The notes beneath the pieces were generated by a model. The model ran no database searches and was not told where the DNA came from. It saw only the letters and a program-made list of their open reading frames with translations. This document shows, one piece after another, positions 52,908 to 64,000 of a stretch of DNA of 64,000 nucleotides. The first letter of the stretch is position 1. Each line of letters begins with the position of its first letter. The position numbers were made by a program, and so were the translations under genes. The DNA comes from an uncultured Neglectibacter sp. GTDB lineage: Bacteria > Bacillota > Clostridia > Oscillospirales > Acutalibacteraceae. The stretch covers positions 186,001-250,000 of the forward strand of contig CAMNSA010000003.1 in the NCBI GenBank assembly GCA_946554335.1, given 5' to 3'.

Positions 52908-52964
52908 TATATAAGGCCCTTGTTTTGGCAGATGGAAAGGGATCCTGAGAAAGGGGACGACTTT

Positions 52965-54359
52965 ATGCTGAAATTACCGCTTCGGAAAAGAAGCTCCTAT
53001 GAGATCGATATGGTAAACGGTCCTCTTTTGGGGAAGATCTTTCGGTTTGCCCTTCCGCTGGCGCTTTCGGGCATTTTGCAGCTGCTCTTTAATGCCGCGG
53101 ACATTGTGGTGGTGGGGCAGTTTGCCGGAAGCACCGCTTTGGCGGCGGTGGGCGCAACGGGAGCCATCACCAACCTGATCGTCACACTGTTCATGGGGAT
53201 CTCGGTGGGGGCCAATGTGCTGATCGCCCAGTATTACGGGGCGGGAAACCGAAGGGACTTAAACGAGACCGTACATACCGCCATTACGGCCAGCCTGGTG
53301 TTCGGCGTCGCTCTGGTGGGGGTGGGGATCGCCCTGTCCCGACCGATGCTCACCATGATGGATACGCCGGAAAAGGTGATTGAGCAGGCCACCCTCTATA
53401 TGCGCATCTATTTTGTGGGGATGCCGGTGCTGATGCTCTATAACTTCGGCGCGGCGGTGCTGCGGGCGGTGGGAGATACCCAGCGCCCTCTGTACTTCCT
53501 GCTGATCGCCGGAGTGATCAATGTGATCCTCAACTTGTTCTTCGTCATCGTGTGCCATCTGGGCGTGGCGGGAGTTGCCATTGCCACAGTGGCTTCTCAG
53601 GCGGTTTCCGCCGTGCTGGTCACCCTGTGCCTGATGAAAAGCGACGGGCCTTACCGGCTGGAGCTCAAACGTCTTCGCATCAAAAAGGATAAGCTCTGGA
53701 AAATGGCGAAGATCGGTCTGCCCGCTGGGATTCAGGGCGCCTCCTTCTCCATTTCCAATGTGCTGATCCAGTCCTCCATCAACTCCTTCGGAGATCTGGC
53801 CGTGGCGGGAAATACCGCGGGCGCCAATATCGAAAGCTTCGTTTCCGCCGCCATGGATTCCTTTTCTCAGGCGGCCTTGAGCTTCACCGGCCAGAATCTG
53901 GGAGCCGGGAAGCTCAAGCGGATCAGCCGGATCATGCTGCTCTGTCTGCTGCTGGGCTCCGGCATGGGGCTTCTGATGGGCGTGGGCGGGTACTTCGCCG
54001 CACCCCATCTTTTGGGGATCTATTCCAGCGACCCGGAGGTGATCCGGTTCGGCGTGCAGAGAATGAGCACGGTATGCGTGTTCCAGCTGCTGGGGGGTAT
54101 GATGGGAGTGATGGTGGGCGTGCTGAGAGGCATGGGCGCTTCCTTTGTGCCCATGGCCATCACCATCTCCTTTGTGTGCGGCTTCCGGGTGATCTGGATC
54201 TTTACCGTGTTTTCCGCCTTTCCCACCCTGACCGTATTGTACGCCTCCTACCCCATCACCTGGGGGCTGGCGGCGGTGTGCGACTTTATCTGCTATCTGC
54301 TGGTCAAGCGCCATATTGTAAAGAAGAGAAGCAAAGCTTTGGAAGAAAGCGCCGTTTAA
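52965..54359 (+). CDS. MATE-family efflux transporter (first copy)
   Basis: A 464-residue protein with twelve membrane spans. SYEIDMVNGPLLGKIFRFALPLALSGILQLLFNAADIVVVGQF is the clostridial MATE entry; GVAGVAIATVASQAVSAVLV and LPAGIQGASFSISNVLIQSSINSFG mark the second half. MATE pumps expel cationic drugs or metabolites using H+ or Na+. Start ATG 52965 follows GAAAGGGGA. The next gene is a close paralogue 37 bases on, so this is a tandem duplication. Confidence 0.9.
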   Translation: MLKLPLRKRSSYEIDMVNGPLLGKIFRFALPLALSGILQLLFNAADIVVVGQFAGSTALAAVGATGAITNLIVTLFMGISVGANVLIAQYYGAGNRRDLNETVHTAITASLVFGVALVGVGIALSRPMLTMMDTPEKVIEQATLYMRIYFVGMPVLMLYNFGAAVLRAVGDTQRPLYFLLIAGVINVILNLFFVIVCHLGVAGVAIATVASQAVSAVLVTLCLMKSDGPYRLELKRLRIKKDKLWKMAKIGLPAGIQGASFSISNVLIQSSINSFGDLAVAGNTAGANIESFVSAAMDSFSQAALSFTGQNLGAGKLKRISRIMLLCLLLGSGMGLLMGVGGYFAAPHLLGIYSSDPEVIRFGVQRMSTVCVFQLLGGMMGVMVGVLRGMGASFVPMAITISFVCGFRVIWIFTVFSAFPTLTVLYASYPITWGLAAVCDFICYLLVKRHIVKKRSKALEESAV

Positions 54360-54396
54360 AGCGGCGCTTTCCCTGCGAAAAAAGGAAGTGGAGAAA

Positions 54397-55815
54397 ATGT
54401 CCCTGTTTCACAGATCCTCCGGAAAGAAGGGCTCCTATGAGATCGATATGGTAAACGGACCCCTTTTGGGGAAGATCGTCCGGTTTGCCGTTCCGTTGGG
54501 GCTTTCGGGCATTTTGCAGCTGCTCTTTAACGCCGCGGACATTGTGGTGGTGGGCAAATTTGCCGGAAGCACCGCTTTGGCGGCGGTGGGCTCTACCAGC
54601 TCTTTGATCAATCTGATTGTCAACCTGTTCATTGGCCTTTCCATCGGCGCCAATGTGCTGGTGGCCAGGTGTTACGGGGCGGGACAGAAGAAGGACCTGA
54701 AGGAGGCTGTGCATACGGCCATCACCGCCAGCCTGGTGTGCGGGGCGGTGCTGGTGGTGATCGGGGTCACCCTGGCCCGGTCTCTGCTGTTTTTGATGGG
54801 CAGCCCGCCGAAGGTGATCGACCAGGCGGCCCTCTACATGCGCATTTTCTTTTTGGGGATGCCGGTGAATATGCTTTACAATTTCGGAGCGGCGGTGCTG
54901 CGGGCCGTGGGAGACACCAAGCGGCCCCTCTATTTTCTGCTGATCTCCGGAGTGGTCAATGTGATCCTCAACCTGTTCTTTGTCATCGTCTGCCATCTGG
55001 GCGTGGCTGGCGTGGCCATCGCCACGGTGGTATCCCAGGTCATTTCCGCCGTGCTGGTCATCCTGTGCCTGATGAAAAGCGACGGGCCTTACCGGCTGGA
55101 GTTTAAAAGCCTTGGGGTCAAAAAGGACAAGCTGCTGCAAATGGTGAAGATCGGCCTGCCCGCCGGAATTCAGGGAGCTATCTTCTCCATTTCCAATGTG
55201 CTCATCCAGTCCTCCATCAATTCCTTCGGAGATATTGCCATGGCAGGCAGCGCGGCCGCCGCCAATATCGAGGGCTTCGTATATACGGGGATGAACGCCT
55301 TTTATCAGGCGGCCTTGAGCTTTACCGGCCAGAACCTGGGGGCGGGAAAGCCCTCCCGCGTGAAAAAGATCATGGTTTTCTGCCTGCTGCTGGTTTCCGG
55401 CTGCGGGCTCGTTCTGGGCGTGGGCGCTTATCTTTTGGGACGGCCCCTTCTGGGGATCTACTCCTCTGACGCTCAGGTGATCGAGTACGGGCTTGAGCGG
55501 CTTGCGGTCATCTGCGCCCTCTATTTCCTGTGCGGCGTCATGGATGTGATGGTGGGGATGCTGCGGGGCATGGGCTATTCCATTGTCCCCATGATCGTTT
55601 CCATTGTGGGCGTCTGCGGGTTTCGAGTGGGGTGGATCTACACGGTGTTTTCTCTCAACCGCTCCCTGTTTGTGCTGTACCTTTCCTACCCGGTGAGCTG
55701 GGTGATCACCGGGGGATTCCATCTCATCTGTTACTTTTTCCTCTGCCGCAAAGTGCTTCGCCCCAAGATCCGAATGGAAAAGCAGGCCGTTTCCCGGGAG
55801 GGAGCGGGCCTGTAG
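54397..55815 (+). CDS. MATE-family efflux transporter (second copy)
   Basis: A 472-residue paralogue of the preceding gene. Both share SYEIDMVNGPLLGKI, the phrase AGSTALAAVG, MLYNFGAAVLRAVGDT, and VICHLGVAGVAIATV-like segments, with an estimated three-quarters of residues identical. The C-terminal third and loops vary more. ATG 54397 has AAGGAAG upstream. It probably shares the first gene's transcript. No regulator of the MarR or MerR type is adjacent. Confidence 0.9.
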   Translation: MSLFHRSSGKKGSYEIDMVNGPLLGKIVRFAVPLGLSGILQLLFNAADIVVVGKFAGSTALAAVGSTSSLINLIVNLFIGLSIGANVLVARCYGAGQKKDLKEAVHTAITASLVCGAVLVVIGVTLARSLLFLMGSPPKVIDQAALYMRIFFLGMPVNMLYNFGAAVLRAVGDTKRPLYFLLISGVVNVILNLFFVIVCHLGVAGVAIATVVSQVISAVLVILCLMKSDGPYRLEFKSLGVKKDKLLQMVKIGLPAGIQGAIFSISNVLIQSSINSFGDIAMAGSAAAANIEGFVYTGMNAFYQAALSFTGQNLGAGKPSRVKKIMVFCLLLVSGCGLVLGVGAYLLGRPLLGIYSSDAQVIEYGLERLAVICALYFLCGVMDVMVGMLRGMGYSIVPMIVSIVGVCGFRVGWIYTVFSLNRSLFVLYLSYPVSWVITGGFHLICYFFLCRKVLRPKIRMEKQAVSREGAGL

Positions 55816-56842: not shown

Positions 56843-57280
56843 GTGTATCAGAGAAAATTGAGATTATCATTGAAAGAAGAAGAATTGATGGAGTACTATT
56901 GGACTTCGCAGGAGCCGATGACCAGTGTGGATCTGAGGAACTTCTGCACCGATCACAGCTGGCAGGAGAGCTATTTGAAAACGCTGATCCGCCACCTTTT
57001 GGAAAAGGGCCTGCTGGAGGAGTGCGGGACGAAGCTGCAGGGCGTCCATCATGTGAGGCTGTTCCGCCCTGCCAAAACCCGGGAGGAATACTACACGGAA
57101 TACGCGGCGGAGAGTCCCATTGACAGCGCGTTGTTTGCCAAGACCGCCGTGGGATTGGCAAAGGCAAAGGGCACCAGAGAGGAAAACGAAAAAATGATCT
57201 CAGAGCTGGAGAAAATGCTGGAGGAATATAAGAAGGAGGTCGGGGAGGAAAAGGCTCCTCCCGAGGAAAAGAAAAAATGA
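56843..57280 (+). CDS. BlaI/MecI-family transcriptional repressor
   Basis: A 145-residue winged-helix protein. LRLSLKEEELMEYYWTSQEPMTSVDLRNFCTDHSWQESYLKTLIRHLLEKGLLEE is the DNA-binding domain; the C-terminal helices (DSALFAKTAVGLAKAKGTREENEKMISELEKML) should dimerise. In known systems such repressors are cut by the protease of the partner sensor. The start is GTG 56843 after AAAGGGGAAG. It overlaps the M56 gene by four bases (ATGA). No beta-lactamase or PBP gene is next to it, so the regulon is likely the genes that follow. Confidence 0.85.
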   Translation: MYQRKLRLSLKEEELMEYYWTSQEPMTSVDLRNFCTDHSWQESYLKTLIRHLLEKGLLEECGTKLQGVHHVRLFRPAKTREEYYTEYAAESPIDSALFAKTAVGLAKAKGTREENEKMISELEKMLEEYKKEVGEEKAPPEEKKK

Positions 57281-58422
57281 GCTTCACGGTTTTTTCTATC
57301 GTCACCGCTTTGATGTTTTCCTCTCTGATCCTGCTGCTGGTGCATTGCTTCCGAAGGAAGCGGTCGGTCATCCTGGGGCTTGGGGCCGGCAGCGTAGCCT
57401 TTTTCCTCATACTGTTTCTTGTGCGGCAGCTCTTCACGCCGGAATTTTCCTTCACCTGGGAAATTGACACCCAGCTGGTCAATGATTTTTACGAGTGGTT
57501 TTATATCAAGCCCATCACCCTGGGTCCGTTCACCTTCTATGTATACATCGCGCTGCTGGTAGTCTGGATAACCGGAGCCCTCCTTCTTCTGGGCAGGTTT
57601 GTGGGAAAGTACCACAAGGCCGTCAAAAGTGTGCTGAATCGGGGCGTTGTTCCCTTCCCTCAGGGTCAGGCTGTTTTGCAGCGGGTGGCAAAGGGAGGCC
57701 CCGGCCCCGAAAAGGTAAAGGTGTTTTTCTGCCGGGATATCGATATCCCTATGGGCATCGGCCTGATCCGACGGAGCATCCTGCTGCCGGAGGGAAGCTA
57801 TGAGGAAGAGGAGCTGGAATATATCCTGCTGCACGAATACACCCATTTCCGAAACCATGATCTGCTGGTGAAATTCATGCTCTATACCTTCTGCTGTATT
57901 TACTGGTGGAACCCGCTGGTCTATTTGATCAAGAGAGATATCGACGGGCTGCTGGAGGTCAAATGCGACCTGGTGGTCACAAAGGAGATGACAGAGGCAA
58001 AGAAGGCGAGATATCTGGAGGTGATCCTCCAAAGCCTCAAAAAGAGCGAGGCCCCAAAATACCGGATTCAATGCGCGGCCACACTGGCCTCCGGAAAGCA
58101 TACCTGTGAAATGAAGGAGCGCTTTCAGGCCGTTATGGGAAGGCGAAAAAGAAGCAGAAAAGCAGGTATCTGCTTTGTCATAGTGGGCCTGGTGCTGTTC
58201 GCTGCCTCCTATCTCTTTGTGGTACAGCCCTCTTACGAGGCGCCTCCCCCGGAAGAGGGGGTGACGGAAGAACATACGGTCACAGAGGGATATATCGTAA
58301 AAAAGGAGGACGGAAAGTATTACTTTATCGAGCCCGGTCAGGAAGACCAATGGATACTGGAAGAGCAGGTAGAAATGTTCGTCGAGTGTGGATTTGAAGT
58401 CAAGGAAAACCAGGAGGAATAA
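57277..58422 (+). CDS. M56-family membrane sensor protease, BlaR1-like without PBP domain
   Basis: A 381-residue protein with four predicted spans and the zinc-protease motif HEYTH (His186-His190) in LLHEYTHFRNHDLL; the later conserved Glu is likely in DIDGLLEVKCD. A fourth span near residue 300 ends in a short extracellular tail (ending EEQVEMFVECGFEVKENQEE) of about 75 residues. BlaR1 and MecR1 carry a 250-residue penicillin-binding sensor at this place; here it is missing, so the signal is not a beta-lactam bound in that domain. It probably cuts the adjoining BlaI-type repressor in response to an unknown cue. Confidence 0.88.
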   Translation: MSFTVFSIVTALMFSSLILLLVHCFRRKRSVILGLGAGSVAFFLILFLVRQLFTPEFSFTWEIDTQLVNDFYEWFYIKPITLGPFTFYVYIALLVVWITGALLLLGRFVGKYHKAVKSVLNRGVVPFPQGQAVLQRVAKGGPGPEKVKVFFCRDIDIPMGIGLIRRSILLPEGSYEEEELEYILLHEYTHFRNHDLLVKFMLYTFCCIYWWNPLVYLIKRDIDGLLEVKCDLVVTKEMTEAKKARYLEVILQSLKKSEAPKYRIQCAATLASGKHTCEMKERFQAVMGRRKRSRKAGICFVIVGLVLFAASYLFVVQPSYEAPPPEEGVTEEHTVTEGYIVKKEDGKYYFIEPGQEDQWILEEQVEMFVECGFEVKENQEE

Positions 58423-58677: not shown

Positions 58678-58689
58678 AACGGGCTGAAA

Positions 58690-58780
58690 AAACCGCTTGC
58701 GGGCCGGACAACAAGGCCCTGCTTCCCGCCTTACAACAAGGAAGCAAAGGCTTTTCAGGCCCGGCCCGATCAGCGGCTTT
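58690..58780 (+). other. Large structured inverted repeat after the small secreted gene
   Basis: Nested stems: CCGCT (58693-58697) with AGCGG (58772-58776), GGGCCGG (58701-58707) with CCGGCCC (58761-58767), and GCTTCC (58721-58726) with GGAAGC (58740-58745). No T tract follows, so it is not an ordinary terminator. It could be a structured RNA or a processing site. Confidence 0.5.
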
Positions 58781-58861
58781 GTAAAAACGGGATAAAAAAG
58801 GAAAGGGGGTGGTACCGATGGGAAGGTGAAAGCAGGCAATTTATTGCCCGATTCAAAAGAA

Positions 58862-58984
58862 TATCTTCTTCAAAGTGGTTCGGGAATAAAAAAATCGTAC
58901 CAAACTGAAATGGCTGGGCGGCCCGCCGAAAAATTCGGCGCTCAGTTGATACGATGGGATTATTCTAACTGGTTTTGAAGAAAA
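58862..58984. repeat. Long imperfect palindrome (about 45-base arms)
   Basis: Left arm 58862-58908 and right arm 58941-58984 match in inverted orientation over words CTTCTTCAAA, GGTT, GAATAA, ATCGTA and AACTGA, with small mismatches; a GCCGAA/TTCGGC hairpin sits in the centre. The layout is of a MITE-like element or a big cruciform rather than a simple terminator. The rest of the 400-base gap from 58678 to 59078 has no gene. Confidence 0.55.
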
Positions 58985-59078
58985 AAGCAAGAGGAAACAG
59001 CCGGGAAAAATTTCCACGGCCGGAAAGCCTTCCCTGTTTCCTGCGGAAGGCAATGTAAAAAACCAAGGAGGAATAATT

Positions 59079-60635
59079 TTGAGAAGAAAAGCTTTACTTT
59101 CATTGCTCTGTCTGCTGATGGGAGTTTTCATGCTGGGAATTCCCGCAGCGGCGGCAGCAAACCCCGGGGGAGGAACGGCCCAGCCTTACTCGTTTACGGA
59201 CCCGGTTCCGCCGGAAATCTCCGTTACCGGCATTTCCACGAAATATGTGGGAGACACGGTGACGGTAAAGGCGACATCCACCACTCCCTGCTATCGGATG
59301 TCAGCGAAATATGTGCATAACGGCACGACCAAATGGCTGGGAGATGTAAAGGGAAGGAATTACTCAAAAACCTTTACCGTAAGCTCTGCCGGAACCTATA
59401 CGGTGACCGTGTACGCAAGGAATTATCCGGAAAGTGATTCGAGAAGCTGTTCGAGTAGTGAAAGCGTGAGTTTCACGGTGAGGGAACGGGTGGTGACGCC
59501 CACGGTGACGCTGCCCTCCATTGCGGACCAGACGGTGGAAAATACCGTGACGGTGAAGGGTTCCGCCACCACGCCCTGCTATAGAATGTCTGCGAAGGTG
59601 GTACATAACGGCGTTACCAAGTGGCTGGGAGACCAGTCCGGGGCCTCCTATTCCAAAACCTATACGGTGACGGAGGCTGGGCAATACGGCGTGACCCTGT
59701 ATGCGAGAAGCTATCCGGAAAGTGACGCACGAAGCGGGCAGGGCGTGAAAACGGTCTGGTTCAACGCCTACGATCCGGTAAGGCCCACGGTGACCTTGAA
59801 CAGCATAACAGGAACAAAGAAGGTGGGAGGCGTCATAACGGTATCGGGAACCTCTTCCACGCCCTGCTACCGGATGGCGGCGAAGGTGGAGCATGACGGA
59901 GTGAGGAACTGGCTGGGAGAGGTTTCCGGCAGTACCTACAGCAAGACCTACACCATACCGGAACCGGGAACCTACACAGTGACGCTGATCTCCAGAAGCT
60001 ACGCGGAGTCGAACCCCAGAAGCGGCACGGCGGAGGACTCCGTGACCTTCACCGTGACGGGGGATAGTAAAAATCTAAGTGTGCCGCTGTATAAACAAAG
60101 TAAGAATGATACCTGCGGCCCTGCCAGCGCTGGAATGATTTTGGGTTATTTCGGAATCGGGGGGAGCGCGCCGGAAAAAACAAAAGGGCCTATGGAAAAA
60201 TCTATTGTAGATTACATCGAAGGTAGAAATAATGAAAATAAAGACTATAAAGACCAAAACAATTTAGCTACGGCAATCAATTATTTTCATCCATCTGGTC
60301 CGTCCTATTTTGTAGAGGAGGTAGACCAATATTCCGTAACTGAATTCCTGAACCTGGTCAAACACAATATCAATAACGGCTGCCCTGTACAAGCCCTGAT
60401 AGAGCCGCAAAATGAATCGGGAGGATTTCCTTATTATTCTCCGGGGCATTATGTGGTGATCACAGGATATTCAGGGAATAACCTTTATATCAATGATCCT
60501 CACTATTACCGATCAGAATCATCAGGATATGAAGAGAGCTTTTGCAACAGGTATGTAATATCTGCTTCGAAAATATTGAGCTATATTGCGACAAAGGACG
60601 CAGACAATCCCATTGTGATCTGCGCGTATCGGTGA
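59079..60635 (+). CDS. Secreted protein with three Ig-like repeats and a C39-like cysteine peptidase domain
   Basis: A 518-residue exported protein. Signal peptide 1-26, then three repeats of about 90 residues, each holding TPCYRM(S/A)AK, a WLG(D/E) segment, YSKT, and SYPESD/N-R-S. The final 180 residues form a Peptidase_C39_2-like domain: Cys346 in NDTCGPASAG, His457 in SPGHYVVITGYSG, Asp473 in YINDPHYY. The start is TTG 59079 after AAGGAGGAA. C39-like peptidases mature bacteriocins or cleave peptides; the repeats likely bind a surface polymer. Context: after the sensor/secreted gene and before the lipoprotein array. Substrate unknown. Confidence 0.78.
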   Translation: MRRKALLSLLCLLMGVFMLGIPAAAAANPGGGTAQPYSFTDPVPPEISVTGISTKYVGDTVTVKATSTTPCYRMSAKYVHNGTTKWLGDVKGRNYSKTFTVSSAGTYTVTVYARNYPESDSRSCSSSESVSFTVRERVVTPTVTLPSIADQTVENTVTVKGSATTPCYRMSAKVVHNGVTKWLGDQSGASYSKTYTVTEAGQYGVTLYARSYPESDARSGQGVKTVWFNAYDPVRPTVTLNSITGTKKVGGVITVSGTSSTPCYRMAAKVEHDGVRNWLGEVSGSTYSKTYTIPEPGTYTVTLISRSYAESNPRSGTAEDSVTFTVTGDSKNLSVPLYKQSKNDTCGPASAGMILGYFGIGGSAPEKTKGPMEKSIVDYIEGRNNENKDYKDQNNLATAINYFHPSGPSYFVEEVDQYSVTEFLNLVKHNINNGCPVQALIEPQNESGGFPYYSPGHYVVITGYSGNNLYINDPHYYRSESSGYEESFCNRYVISASKILSYIATKDADNPIVICAYR

Positions 60636-60678
60636 GAGAGTTGTCAATGATTTTTTTGACAGAGAAAGGATGAAAAGA

Positions 60679-61803
60679 ATGAAACGAAGAATAATGAGCA
60701 TTTTGTGCGCAGCGGTATTGACGATGAGCTTGGTTGCCTGCGGTGCGGAAGAGAAGCTGGAAAGCCCTGCTCAGGCATCCAAGCAGGAAACGGCTGTCTC
60801 CTCAAACACTCCCACGCCTGAGCCGATGAAGGAGTGGAAAGCGCCGGAACCGAAGCTGCTTTCCCTGGGCGGAGAAGGCGGCGGCGGAGATATCCCGGAT
60901 GAATGGCTGGTAGACGAGAACACGCAGCTTCCCGAAACCATGATAGTATCTCGGAATGATGGATATGGGATCACCCTTGCGGATCTGGACAAGGCAAAAA
61001 TGGCCCAAACGGCACAAGGATATCTCAGGATACTGTATGGAGATGATGCGCTGGAATTGGGTGAATCTCAACTGGTCACTGAACGGAAAGATGAATATGG
61101 GGCCGAGCAGTTTCACAACCAATACTATTATGAAGATGAAGGAACAGAGCTTTATATCAGAAAGGACACGATACTTGCCCGTGTGAAACAATCTCAAGAA
61201 TTATATGACGCAGTAGCTGCAGGAAATACAGAAGCGCTCCTTGCTCTTCCGGCGGTGCAGGCGGCTATTCGGACAGCGGGGCTGAATGAGGCGGAAATCG
61301 TTGCGCGTTATTCGAATGATTGCTATCTGATATGGGAAAAAGGGAAAACCGCTGCGGAAGATGCATATAACCGAGAATTCAGAAGTGTGAAGATTCGCCT
61401 GTCGACAGAACCTAAAGTGTCGTTCTATTTTTACTATCAACCGCTTCGTGAAAAGGCAGAGCTTCCCGTTTTGCCTTATTCTGACGCCCTCAGATTTATC
61501 GAAGAGGGAAAATGGGGGAAATTGACAGGCGATGGGGTTCGATGCGAGATTGTCTATGAATCTCCCGGCGATTTTGGGCAGCTTGTTCCCTGCTACCGGT
61601 TCACCTTGAATCATCCTAAATTTTTTGGAAGCCTCTATGTTCCTATGGTGGACTATGAATCTGTCACAGAAGAGGACTATGAGACCATAGAGGAACTGCA
61701 GGAAGAATCTTCTTCTGAACCGGTATCTTCCGAGCCGGAGCCGGTATCTTCCGAACTCTCAGAGCCGGAAACCGTGACCTCATTGCCGCCGGAGGAAAAC
61801 TAA
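60679..61803 (+). CDS. Lipoprotein paralogue 1 of an unrecognised family
   Basis: A 374-residue predicted lipoprotein with lipobox LVACG (Cys at about residue 18), then a Ser/Thr/Pro spacer. A stretch shared with the other copies follows: KEWKAPEPKLLSLGG, a Gly run, and IPDEWLVDENTQLPETM. The middle (about residues 95-310) differs from paralogue 2. The end is an acidic Ser/Glu/Pro tail (SSSEPVSSEPEPVSSELSEP). ATG 60679 has AAAGGA upstream. No catalytic motif is recognised. The last 140 bases belong to a 238-base segment identical to one at 63533. Confidence 0.7.
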   Translation: MKRRIMSILCAAVLTMSLVACGAEEKLESPAQASKQETAVSSNTPTPEPMKEWKAPEPKLLSLGGEGGGGDIPDEWLVDENTQLPETMIVSRNDGYGITLADLDKAKMAQTAQGYLRILYGDDALELGESQLVTERKDEYGAEQFHNQYYYEDEGTELYIRKDTILARVKQSQELYDAVAAGNTEALLALPAVQAAIRTAGLNEAEIVARYSNDCYLIWEKGKTAAEDAYNREFRSVKIRLSTEPKVSFYFYYQPLREKAELPVLPYSDALRFIEEGKWGKLTGDGVRCEIVYESPGDFGQLVPCYRFTLNHPKFFGSLYVPMVDYESVTEEDYETIEELQEESSSEPVSSEPEPVSSELSEPETVTSLPPEEN

Positions 61804-61897
61804 TCAAGGGGGGTTCCTCCTTCGATTCATGCAAAACCGTGTTTTTTCAAAAGATAAGCCTATAAGCGGCAGAAATTAAGTAGAGTGAAGAGACCGG
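61660..61897 (+). repeat. Direct repeat, copy 1 (lipoprotein 3' end plus flank)
   Basis: 238 bases identical, by my reading, to 63533-63770. It spans the C-terminal tail codons, the stop, and about 95 non-coding bases with an AAGGGGGG/CCTCCTT hairpin. Beyond it the two copies still agree with few changes. Confidence 0.9.
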
Positions 61898-61901
61898 AAG
61901 A

Positions 61902-61929
61902 CAGGGGGCCGGAAAGGGCCGGCCCCCTG
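61902..61929 (+). other. Recurrent GC hairpin upstream of the ribosome site, copy 1
   Basis: Eleven-pair stem CAGGGGGCCGG/CCGGCCCCCTG with loop AAAGGG, then TTTT. It lies 12 bases before AAAAAGGAG of the 144-residue membrane protein. The same element occurs at 62452 and 63775. Confidence 0.8.
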
Positions 61930-61953
61930 TTTTCCCCAAAAAGGAGTGGGGAA

Positions 61954-62388
61954 ATGAACGGGAAGGTTAAAAAGGGATTCAAGCGATTTCACAAGCTGGG
62001 AGGGCTCAGCCTGATCCTTGCCCTGGCCTTCGGAGTCGGGGCCCTGAAAGGTACGATGAACGCGTCGCAGGTATATGTCTGGGTCATAGAATGGTTTTTC
62101 CCCGCCCTGCTTCTAACAGACGCTATGGAAAGATTCTGTAAAGAAAAGAGAGGGGAAGGGCGATTTGGAAAAACGCGATTCTGCCGCTTTTTTTCGGCAG
62201 GAGGGGGAGAATTCCTTTTTGCCGGGGCAATGGTGGGCTTCGCGATAGAGGCGATGGTGGAGCGGGCCGGCGCCATCATATGGGGAGTAGAGCTGCTGTT
62301 TGCCGTGGGCGTTGTGATCCTCGGCGTGGTGGCCTACCGCAGCAGAAATCAATACACAGACGACTGGCTGGATTATTGGCTTTCCTGA
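61954..62388 (+). CDS. Small polytopic membrane protein in the lipoprotein array
   Basis: A 144-residue protein with about four hydrophobic segments (LSLILALAFGVGAL; VYVWVIEWFFPALLLT; FLFAGAMVGFAIEAMVE; IIWGVELLFAVGVVILGVVAY) and basic ends; it finishes YTDDWLDYWLS. AAAAAGGAG precedes ATG 61954, in the same leader unit that precedes the lipoproteins. No family is recognised. It may anchor or assist the neighbouring lipoproteins. Confidence 0.65.
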   Translation: MNGKVKKGFKRFHKLGGLSLILALAFGVGALKGTMNASQVYVWVIEWFFPALLLTDAMERFCKEKRGEGRFGKTRFCRFFSAGGGEFLFAGAMVGFAIEAMVERAGAIIWGVELLFAVGVVILGVVAYRSRNQYTDDWLDYWLS

Positions 62389-62451
62389 CACGAAAAAACG
62401 GCTCTAAAAACAGAAGCCTGTAACAAATAGAGAAAAGAGACCGGGGGAACA

Positions 62452-62477
62452 AGGGGGCCGGAAAGGGACGGCCCCCT
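62452..62477 (+). other. Recurrent GC hairpin upstream of the ribosome site, copy 2
   Basis: AGGGGGCCG with CGGCCCCCT (one mismatch above the loop), 13 bases before AAAAAGGAG of paralogue 2. A more diverged copy; the flanking AGAGACCGGGGG is also shared. Confidence 0.75.
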
Positions 62478-62503
62478 GCCTTCCCAAAAAGGAGTGGGGG
62501 AAA

Positions 62504-63676
62504 ATGAAAAACTGGAAACGAATGGGAAGTATCTTGTGCGCGGCGGTATTGACAATGAGCTTGGTTGCCTGCGCGTCGGAAGAGAAGCCGGAAAATAAGC
62601 CGCCTGTCAGCTCTTCTCAGGTACCCAAGCAGGAAACGGCTGTTTCTTCAGAAGCTCCTACACCGGTGCCGGTGAAGGAGTGGAAGGCGCCGGAACCGGA
62701 ATTAATTTCTTTAGGCGGAGGCGGCGGTGGAGCGATTCCGGACGAGTGGCTGGTAGACGAGAACACGCAGCTGCCTGAGACTATGCCGGTATACCGAAAT
62801 TCTTACGCGCATGGATTTGTTTTCACAGAGGAACTGGATAAAAAAGAGCTTCTTCACAAGGCCGAAAACTATCTCAAACTGTTTTATCAAGACGAGGAGT
62901 TTCGCTTGGATGAAACGCTGGTACTTCCGGAAACGCGAAAAGAGGCAATGGCGCAATATGTCTATGAGGATGATTCCCTGAAAATGCGCCTTAGAGGAGA
63001 TCACTTTTTGATTGAAATAAAGCGGGACTTGGATTTATTTACAGCGGTAAAAGCAGGAGATAAAGAGAAGATCCTGTCCTCTTCTGCGATTCAGGCCGCC
63101 ATTGAAACGGCAGAGCTGAAGAATTTTAATTGCTGGGCAGTAAACGGAGGTATCCTTCATGCCGATGAGAAGCCGGAGCTTAGCTATTATCTGCTTTCTG
63201 AAGCTGGGAAAGACGCGGAAGAGGATGCTTATAACAGAAAGCTGAGAAATGTCAGGATCGAGACAAGCTTTTCCCCCAAAGTTGAAATTTGGGTCTATTA
63301 CCGCCAGCCCAGTCAAAAGGCGGAGCTTCCGGTGCTTTCTTATGGCAAGGCGTTAGAAAGTGTGAAAGAAAAGTTTCCAAACTATCTGGGAGAATACCGC
63401 TGTACCGTGTCCTTTATGTCATTTGAGGAAAGTGACAAATTGATTCCCTGCTATGAGTTCCTGATAAACGGAAAAACCCAAGATGACCGTTTCGCGTATT
63501 ATACCAGATATGTTCCCATGGTAGACTATGAGTCTGTCACAGAAGAGGACTATGAGACCATAGAGGAACTGCAGGAAGAATCTTCTTCTGAACCGGTATC
63601 TTCCGAGCCGGAGCCGGTATCTTCCGAACTCTCAGAGCCGGAAACCGTGACCTCATTGCCGCCGGAGGAAAACTAA
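62504..63676 (+). CDS. Lipoprotein paralogue 2
   Basis: A 390-residue paralogue of the gene at 60679. Lipobox LVACA (Cys at about residue 23); shared KEWKAPEPELISLGG and IPDEWLVDENTQLPET; a divergent middle of about 220 residues with a few conserved words (AEEDAYNRKLRNVRIE against AAEDAYNREFRSVKIR; QKAELPVL against EKAELPVL); and a C-terminal 55 residues that are identical from YESVTEEDYETIEE to the end. The start is ATG 62504 after AAAAAGGAG. No motif reveals a function. The mix of identical ends and a variable middle is notable. Confidence 0.7.
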   Translation: MKNWKRMGSILCAAVLTMSLVACASEEKPENKPPVSSSQVPKQETAVSSEAPTPVPVKEWKAPEPELISLGGGGGGAIPDEWLVDENTQLPETMPVYRNSYAHGFVFTEELDKKELLHKAENYLKLFYQDEEFRLDETLVLPETRKEAMAQYVYEDDSLKMRLRGDHFLIEIKRDLDLFTAVKAGDKEKILSSSAIQAAIETAELKNFNCWAVNGGILHADEKPELSYYLLSEAGKDAEEDAYNRKLRNVRIETSFSPKVEIWVYYRQPSQKAELPVLSYGKALESVKEKFPNYLGEYRCTVSFMSFEESDKLIPCYEFLINGKTQDDRFAYYTRYVPMVDYESVTEEDYETIEELQEESSSEPVSSEPEPVSSELSEPETVTSLPPEEN

Positions 63677-63770
63677 TCAAGGGGGGTTCCTCCTTCGATT
63701 CATGCAAAACCGTGTTTTTTCAAAAGATAAGCCTATAAGCGGCAGAAATTAAGTAGAGTGAAGAGACCGG
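63533..63770 (+). repeat. Direct repeat, copy 2
   Basis: Matches 61660-61897 over 238 bases without a difference, offset 1873 bases. It includes the tail codons, the stop codon and the downstream flank of paralogue 2. Confidence 0.9.
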
Positions 63771-63774
63771 GAGA

Positions 63775-63802
63775 CAGGGGGCCGGAAAGGGCCGGCCCCC
63801 TG
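63775..63802 (+). other. Recurrent GC hairpin upstream of the ribosome site, copy 3
   Basis: Same CAGGGGGCCGG/CCGGCCCCCTG stem as copy 1, before AAAAAGGAG of paralogue 3. Confidence 0.8.
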
Positions 63803-63827
63803 TCTTCCCAAAAAGGAGTGGGGGAAA

Positions 63828-64000
63828 ATGAAAAACTGGAAACGAACGGGAAGTATCTTGTGCGCGGCAGTGTTGGCAATGAATTTGTTTGCCTGCGGCT
63901 CGGACCCGGAGCCGGGAGCTTTCTCCCAACCTCCGGTAAGCTCTTCGGAGGTTTCAAAGGAGGAATCTGCTGTTTCCTCTCAGGCACCTACGCCCGTTCC
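63828..64000 (+). CDS. Lipoprotein paralogue 3 (partial, runs off the right edge)
   Basis: The first 57 codons are visible: MKNWKRTGSILCAAVLAMNL, lipobox FACG (Cys near residue 23), then a Ser/Pro/Glu spacer with SSSEVSKEESAVSSQAPTPVP. This matches the start of paralogue 2 closely (MKNWKRMGSILCAAVL). AAAAAGGAG lies upstream. The conserved KEWKAPEP region would be expected next, outside the window, so the array continues to the right. Confidence 0.7.
   Translation, partial: MKNWKRTGSILCAAVLAMNLFACGSDPEPGAFSQPPVSSSEVSKEESAVSSQAPTPV

Follow-up and report, generated by a model that had tools for sequence, protein, structure and literature searches.

Recombining lipoprotein genes with shared ends beside a C39-type peptidase gene in an uncultured Neglectibacter: a candidate polymorphic-toxin-like locus

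Organization of the locus

The window analysed in this work, a stretch of 64,000 nucleotides (nt) from an uncultured Neglectibacter sp. (GenBank assembly GCA_946554335.1; G000:C3:186001-250000), carries near its right end a gene for a secreted protein with a C39-type peptidase domain, followed by three tandem lipoprotein genes, g1, g2 and g3. It belongs to contig C3, which ends at position 252200, in a draft assembly of 37 contigs. All genes and elements of the locus lie on the plus strand, and positions given without a contig or locus name are counted from the first nucleotide of the window. The peptidase gene (59079-60635) encodes 518 amino acids, with the C39-type domain starting at about 60072, g1 (60670-61803) encodes 377 and g2 (62504-63676) 390 amino acids, and the start of g3 occupies 63828-64000. 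The lipobox cysteines of all three lipoproteins were read by eye. g1 matches the domain profile A1, in which g1 itself is contained, and g2 is 57% identical to g1 over the entire match.

The three open reading frames (ORFs) bear out the tandem copies proposed in an initial annotation of the sequence, which had also described the third copy as partial and the array as running past the window edge. Copy 3 is merely cut by that edge: the contig extends 2.2 kb beyond it, and there g3 is complete (C3:249828-251846), encoding a protein of 672 amino acids with two copies of the domain (3a and 3b) and without the C-terminal tail shared by g1 and g2. Thus, g3 does continue beyond the window, but the array does not reach the end of the contig, as a strong promoter-like site lies downstream of g3 near the end of C3. 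The lipoproteins, called unrecognised in the initial annotation, indeed matched no Pfam, NCBIfam or PADLOC family at cut-off, and no PDB sequence, including that of TipC (PDB 6DHX), matched g2 or, up to an E-value of 10, a family profile built from seven domains, five of them from this genome.

Identity along the lipoprotein genes

g1 and g2 share a 3' block that comprises the C-terminal tail and the 3' flank (61636-61935 and 63509-63808, respectively; 98% identity over 300 nt with 5 mismatches). Within it 238 nt are identical (61660-61897 and 63533-63770), far beyond chance, which reproduces the mismatch-free stretch reported initially. The N-terminal part (signal and linker, 88 codons) is 78% identical at the amino acid level with a proportion of differing silent sites (pS) of 0.45, the middle (226 codons) is only 38% identical with a pS of 0.77, i.e. 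with saturated silent sites, and a proportion of differing replacement sites (pN) of 0.43, and the tail (54 codons) is 100% identical with a silent distance (dS) of 0.08, the last ~40 codons being free of silent changes. The strongly divergent centre noted before is therefore real, and its edges are sharp: in 40-nt steps the identity drops from 0.93 to 0.35 within 40 nt on the left and from 0.95 to 0.33 within 60 nt on the right, excluding uniform divergence along the genes.

Comparison with 3a revealed that the nearest pair switches along the genes. In the signal region g2 and g3a are closest (bootstrap 0.92), in the first part of the linker g1 and g2 (0.89), as also in its domain-proximal part (1.00), in the middle g1 and g3a (0.92), and in the motif preceding the tail again g1 and g2 (0.95). 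A permutation run test, from which the shared tail was left out because g3a lacks it, was significant at the signal for g2-g3a (p 0.0002) and where the middle begins for g1-g3a (p 0.0006). Nearest-pair switches and run test together indicate mosaic ancestry among these few paralogues.

The divergent parts also differ in composition. The G+C content at third codon positions (GC3) is 0.43 and 0.48 in the lipoprotein middles vs 0.60 and 0.59 in the ends (p 0.002 and 0.047), and in the peptidase gene it falls from 0.67 in the first 331 codons to 0.41 in the 187 catalytic codons (Fisher p 7.5e-9). Elsewhere in the window 38 ORFs of at least 150 codons, some of which are probably not genes, have a mean GC3 of 0.65 (standard deviation 0.066), and a value of 0.50 or lower was found in 1 of 50 blocks of 230 codons. 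This drop is at least as suggestive of an imported or replaced middle as of the diversification in place suggested initially. A ratio of replacement to silent changes (dN/dS) above 1 was not seen in the g1/g2 middle; as silent sites are saturated there, positive selection is not shown.

In a maximum likelihood tree of 15 domains 3a falls into one clade with g1 and g2 (support 99/98) and 3b into another with a paralogue on contig C7 of the same genome (100/99), and therefore g3 joins two types of the domain. Its stop codon precedes the shared tail, and tail-like DNA lies 3' of it.

A second locus in the same genome

The locus on C7 repeats the arrangement with different contents. Leader and signal-peptide codons are identical to those on C3 over 410 nt (97% identity over 517 nt), the end of the tail and the 3' flank agree at 96% of 170 nt, with 84-86 nt being identical, and an island of 178 nt where the peptidase domain begins shows 86% identity. 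Between these stretches both products differ. The peptidase domains share 40% identity, and the C7 lipoprotein, which lacks the N-terminal block of the C3 copies, is 17-22% identical to g1, g2 and 3a and 45% to 3b. Since the peptidase domains of C3 and of genome G199 (genus g96) are likewise 40% identical, the distance between the two cargos of this genome is similar to that between cargos of different genera. Together the two loci hold five copies of the lipoprotein domain, all that were found in this genome.

The peptidase gene on C7 is broken by an early stop, has lost most of its repeat part and contains a short structured insert, and the lipoprotein frame is open. The insert (L008:7735-7885, minus strand), compact and some 150 nt long, folds into strong nested hairpins (z -5.4) and gave no Rfam match up to an E-value of 5. 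Behind the C7 paralogue a different lipoprotein gene follows (L008:4923-5663, minus strand), for which no family was found above cut-off.

The peptidase gene and its pairing with lipoprotein genes

The product of 59079-60635 consists of a signal peptide, assigned by eye, three repeats of about 96 amino acids and a C-terminal C39-type domain of the papain fold. The latter matches PF13529 above the family cut-off (E 2.1e-18), the repeats match families of the immunoglobulin (Ig) type only below cut-off, and the nearest PDB sequence to the protein had an E-value of only 0.064. In an alignment of four catalytic domains, read by eye, Cys, His and Asp columns are common to all. Hence the protein has the architecture known from polymorphic toxin systems, in which a secreted protein of several domains ends in a catalytic one, and the comparison of C3 with the broken C7 gene shows a variable domain of this kind on a conserved N-terminal part. 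Carriage on a mobile element was rejected, as neither viral contigs (tblastn) nor phages yielded a relative of the C39 protein and plasmids yielded none of g1. A scan of genome contigs gave a single short match, in an unrelated genome.

Both families were searched for in other genomes, one per species. The lipoprotein profile matched in 9 of 398 genomes of the family, 3 of 29 of the genus and 3 of 394 of the order, as well as in one of two genomes of the genus of G199 and in 1/21 of the family of G583; one genome in each of these counts was already known. With g1 as query 16 of 300 genomes gave matches, mostly via the signal region. The C39 protein, with at most three candidates scored per genome, had matches at E <=1e-10 in 3/398 family genomes; these make up four loci, at each of which a lipoprotein gene of the family follows directly.

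Conversely, 7 of 16 lipoprotein loci have C39 DNA immediately upstream, G583:C33 being counted together with G583:C143. Six were identified by the search or by tblastn (C3, C7, G199:C18, G013:C4, G013:C94 and G583:C143), and at the seventh, in G412, a short remnant was recognised by eye, as it has the signal, the beginning of the repeat part and a terminus similar to the C-terminus of C39. The tblastn search for remnants covered 12 of the fetched loci and did not extend to L079-L081 or to G294, G297, G232 and G263. The peptidase gene is intact on C3 and at G199:C18, broken at four loci (C7, G412, G583 and G013:C4) and cut by the contig end at one. It is thus broken at four of the six loci that can be assessed, and the lipoprotein frame is open at all seven as far as the contigs reach. 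The break at G013:C4 is a frameshift and possibly a sequencing error. The pairs of G199 and G013 are AT-rich, with a GC3 of 0.37-0.48 vs 0.59-0.69 in six neighbouring genes.

Relatives of the lipoprotein domain (L079:6763-7914 and L081:6149-7417) form extracytoplasmic parts of proteins whose genes stand next to sigma-factor-like genes, and the lipoprotein family may have arisen from them. A fusion protein of G420 carries the domain behind S-layer homology domains (L075:6593-8167), and thus it occurs in another kind of surface protein, too.

Flanking elements and neighbouring genes

The leader common to the C3 and C7 loci (58797-59078) belongs to an identical run, 58797-59206, that reaches the first codons of the peptidase gene. 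It has only two strong matches in this genome and folds somewhat better than shuffled sequences (z -2.2). A second element, termed R, consists of a GC-rich hairpin and a subsequent ribosome-binding site and precedes four genes: a small membrane-protein-like gene between g1 and g2 (R at 61880-61953, hairpin z -5.4), g2 (62425-62503, identified by own-genome block search, folding and alignment), g3 (63753-63827, z -4.7) and the different lipoprotein gene at the C7 locus. The four copies could be aligned, and strong matches were confined to the two loci of this genome. The membrane-protein-like gene (61954-62388; ORF from 61885, with the ATG picked by eye) encodes 144 amino acids and matched no family above cut-off in library scans. 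We rejected the R hairpins as terminators, as no T run follows them and a terminator scan found none there.

Searching the genome with the 3' block yielded 38 matches, four of them at E < 1e-10 (g1, g2, the stretch before g2, and C7), the others no better than 0.0045 and led by hits to the same palindromes on the reverse strand. The 3' flank is kept in three copies. A known RNA in the leader or flanks was rejected, as Rfam gave no match up to an E-value of 1 between 56500 and 64000; one sub-threshold match lay elsewhere in L008. The leader and flank patterns were absent from viral contigs. Each end of the locus is bordered on its outer side by a GC-rich imperfect palindrome (58685-58775 and L007:11972-12050), the two being similar in composition.

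Directly upstream of the locus are genes for a BlaI-type repressor (56843-57280) and a BlaR1-type M56 peptidase (57277-58422); relatives of the latter occur in 21 of 29 genus genomes, with at most 41% identity outside this genome. Further upstream two clearly related transporter-like ORFs, MATE-type as judged by eye, stand in tandem (52920-54359 and 54388-55815).

Discussion

The best-supported part of our interpretation is recombination through the shared ends. The saturated silent sites of the middle next to a nearly unchanged tail, the switches of the nearest pair and the recurrence of the pattern on C7 all argue well for it, in line with the recombination or conversion at the ends suggested initially. 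As to what is being recombined, we lean towards a polymorphic-toxin-like locus in which the lipoproteins would be surface immunity proteins, reshuffled through their conserved ends. The C39 peptidase would be secreted and act on other bacteria, and the lipoprotein, tethered outside the cell, would bind and inhibit it. The additional copies g2 and g3 might protect against peptidase variants of neighbours, and homologous recombination via the shared ends would swap the cargo, add or remove copies and may have produced g3 by fusing two types. We infer an immunity function from the pairing of the two genes, from lipoprotein frames that are open where the peptidase is broken, from the joint divergence of peptidase domain and lipoprotein within common ends, and from precedent.

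Several points weigh against this interpretation. C39-type domains serve other uses as well, and the putative toxin and immunity roles are drawn from sequence. At nine of the 16 domain loci, three to four of which lay outside the tblastn, no C39 gene was seen alongside in what was examined; among these nine, none of its DNA was seen at G199:C39, where the upstream region is masked, or in G397, G194, G420 and G646. Some broken peptidase genes in these draft genomes, above all that of G013:C4, may reflect sequencing errors. The C39 gene of G199 has no significant internal drop in GC3 (0.48 vs 0.40, p 0.11), the entire pair being AT-rich, and outside the tail the run test was not significant for g1-g2 (p 0.10-0.13). 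Finally, the kinship of the domain to proteins beside sigma-factor genes suggests an alternative role in sensing or regulation.

This kinship leads to the strongest competing explanation, a cooperative pair of enzyme and tethered partner without any conflict. The lipoproteins could be regulators, chaperones or substrates of a secreted peptidase with a part in nutrition or in the cell wall, comparable to YpeB, which may keep SleB inactive (PMC13393411). YycI, YpeB and YycH are the best, albeit weak, structure matches of the lipoprotein, which fits such a pair as the relatives beside sigma-factor genes do. We regard it as possible but rather unlikely, as it leaves unexplained why lipoprotein genes are retained beside broken peptidase genes, why the cargo is AT-rich and why one peptidase is accompanied by several divergent copies.

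A poorer candidate is a set of variable surface lipoproteins, such as antigens, phage-receptor or decoy proteins, that are diversified by recombination and stand beside the peptidase gene by chance. Lipoprotein signals, variable middles and shared ends are what such proteins would have, but the lipoprotein is paired with C39 in further genera and in a second family as well, and general repeat and self-match searches, the only ones made, brought up neither phase-variation repeats nor silent cassettes. Of the two functions proposed in the initial annotation, that of a variable surface antigen found no support; putative immunity is the better fit once the C39 peptidase gene upstream and the recurrence of the pair are considered.

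Still less probable is an old tandem duplication with constraint or conversion acting on the tails and 3' flanks, without import of cargo or a function in conflict. The 3' flank, conserved in three copies, may have a function of its own, but some 40 tail codons without silent change next to a saturated middle make plain old duplication unlikely, and the GC3 contrast and the C7 locus would not be accounted for. Misjoined repeats in this 37-contig draft hardly deserve credence even in view of the 410 nt shared by C3 and C7, because the g1/g2 block (98%) and the C7 3' flank (96%) are not fully identical and the frames of g1, g2, g3 and the C7 lipoprotein are open.

Returning to the toxin-immunity interpretation, we tentatively propose, with less confidence than for the locus itself, that this group of bacteria has a secreted polymorphic toxin of a new class, in which a C39 domain and a lipoprotein immunity gene would be exchanged as one block between conserved DNA ends while spare lipoproteins are collected and fused. 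Built on an extracytoplasmic domain that it has in common with proteins encoded next to sigma-factor genes, the lipoprotein might then represent a first immunity family of lipoproteins dedicated to C39-type toxins. If so, a peptidase toxin with a tethered surface inhibitor would join the known systems of interbacterial conflict, end-block recombination as in tipC and esaG would extend to a family that is unrelated to these and uses another export route, and the small gene pair would be open to direct testing. This kind of arrangement is already known; this lipoprotein family and its pairing with a C39-type peptidase were not met in the literature searched, a limited search of an incomplete collection that returned no paper on such a pair.

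Comparison with known systems

The structure matches YycI, YycH and YpeB are extracytoplasmic regulators. The lpl lipoproteins of Staphylococcus aureus are not known to have a peptidase partner. Like the genes described here, lpl genes are recombining tandem lipoprotein paralogues (PMC9484751, PMC4470592), but in lpl the shared stretch is the gene centre (PMC9484751) and here it is the ends.

Closer in layout are the tipC genes of streptococci, which have conserved ends, a variable middle and a probable lipoprotein signal. As in our locus, homology blocks at the gene ends flank a variable middle within a tandem array, and tipC arrays are described with up to 15 genes vs three here (PMC9484751). 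The toxin, in contrast, is a type VII lipid II phosphatase in TelC/TipC and a C39-type peptidase with signal peptide in our case. We found no sequence relation to TipC, and its fold is not among the structure matches listed. In esaG of Staphylococcus aureus the homology block spans the gene end and the downstream intergenic region, the genes are mosaic and the arrays vary in copy number (PMC9484751). This corresponds to the block of tail and 3' flank observed here, but EsaG counters a nuclease, and strain series exist for esaG, whereas we compared one genome per species.

On the toxin side, Tox-PLC39 is listed as a toxin domain of Firmicutes, with the type II secretion system (T2SS) among its export routes (PMC3482391). 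The domain described here resembles it as a C39-type papain-fold domain with C, H and D residues at the C-terminus of a secreted repeat protein. The table in that survey contains no dedicated immunity family for Tox-PLC39 and one link of Imm-SuFu to a C39-like toxin (PMC3482391). Imm65, the only lipoprotein immunity in that collection (PMC3482391), shares the lipoprotein anchor with the products of our locus but is tied to Tox-JAB-1. Poly-immunity loci and fused immunity proteins are described there as well (PMC3482391), and g3, which combines domains of two clades, resembles the latter.

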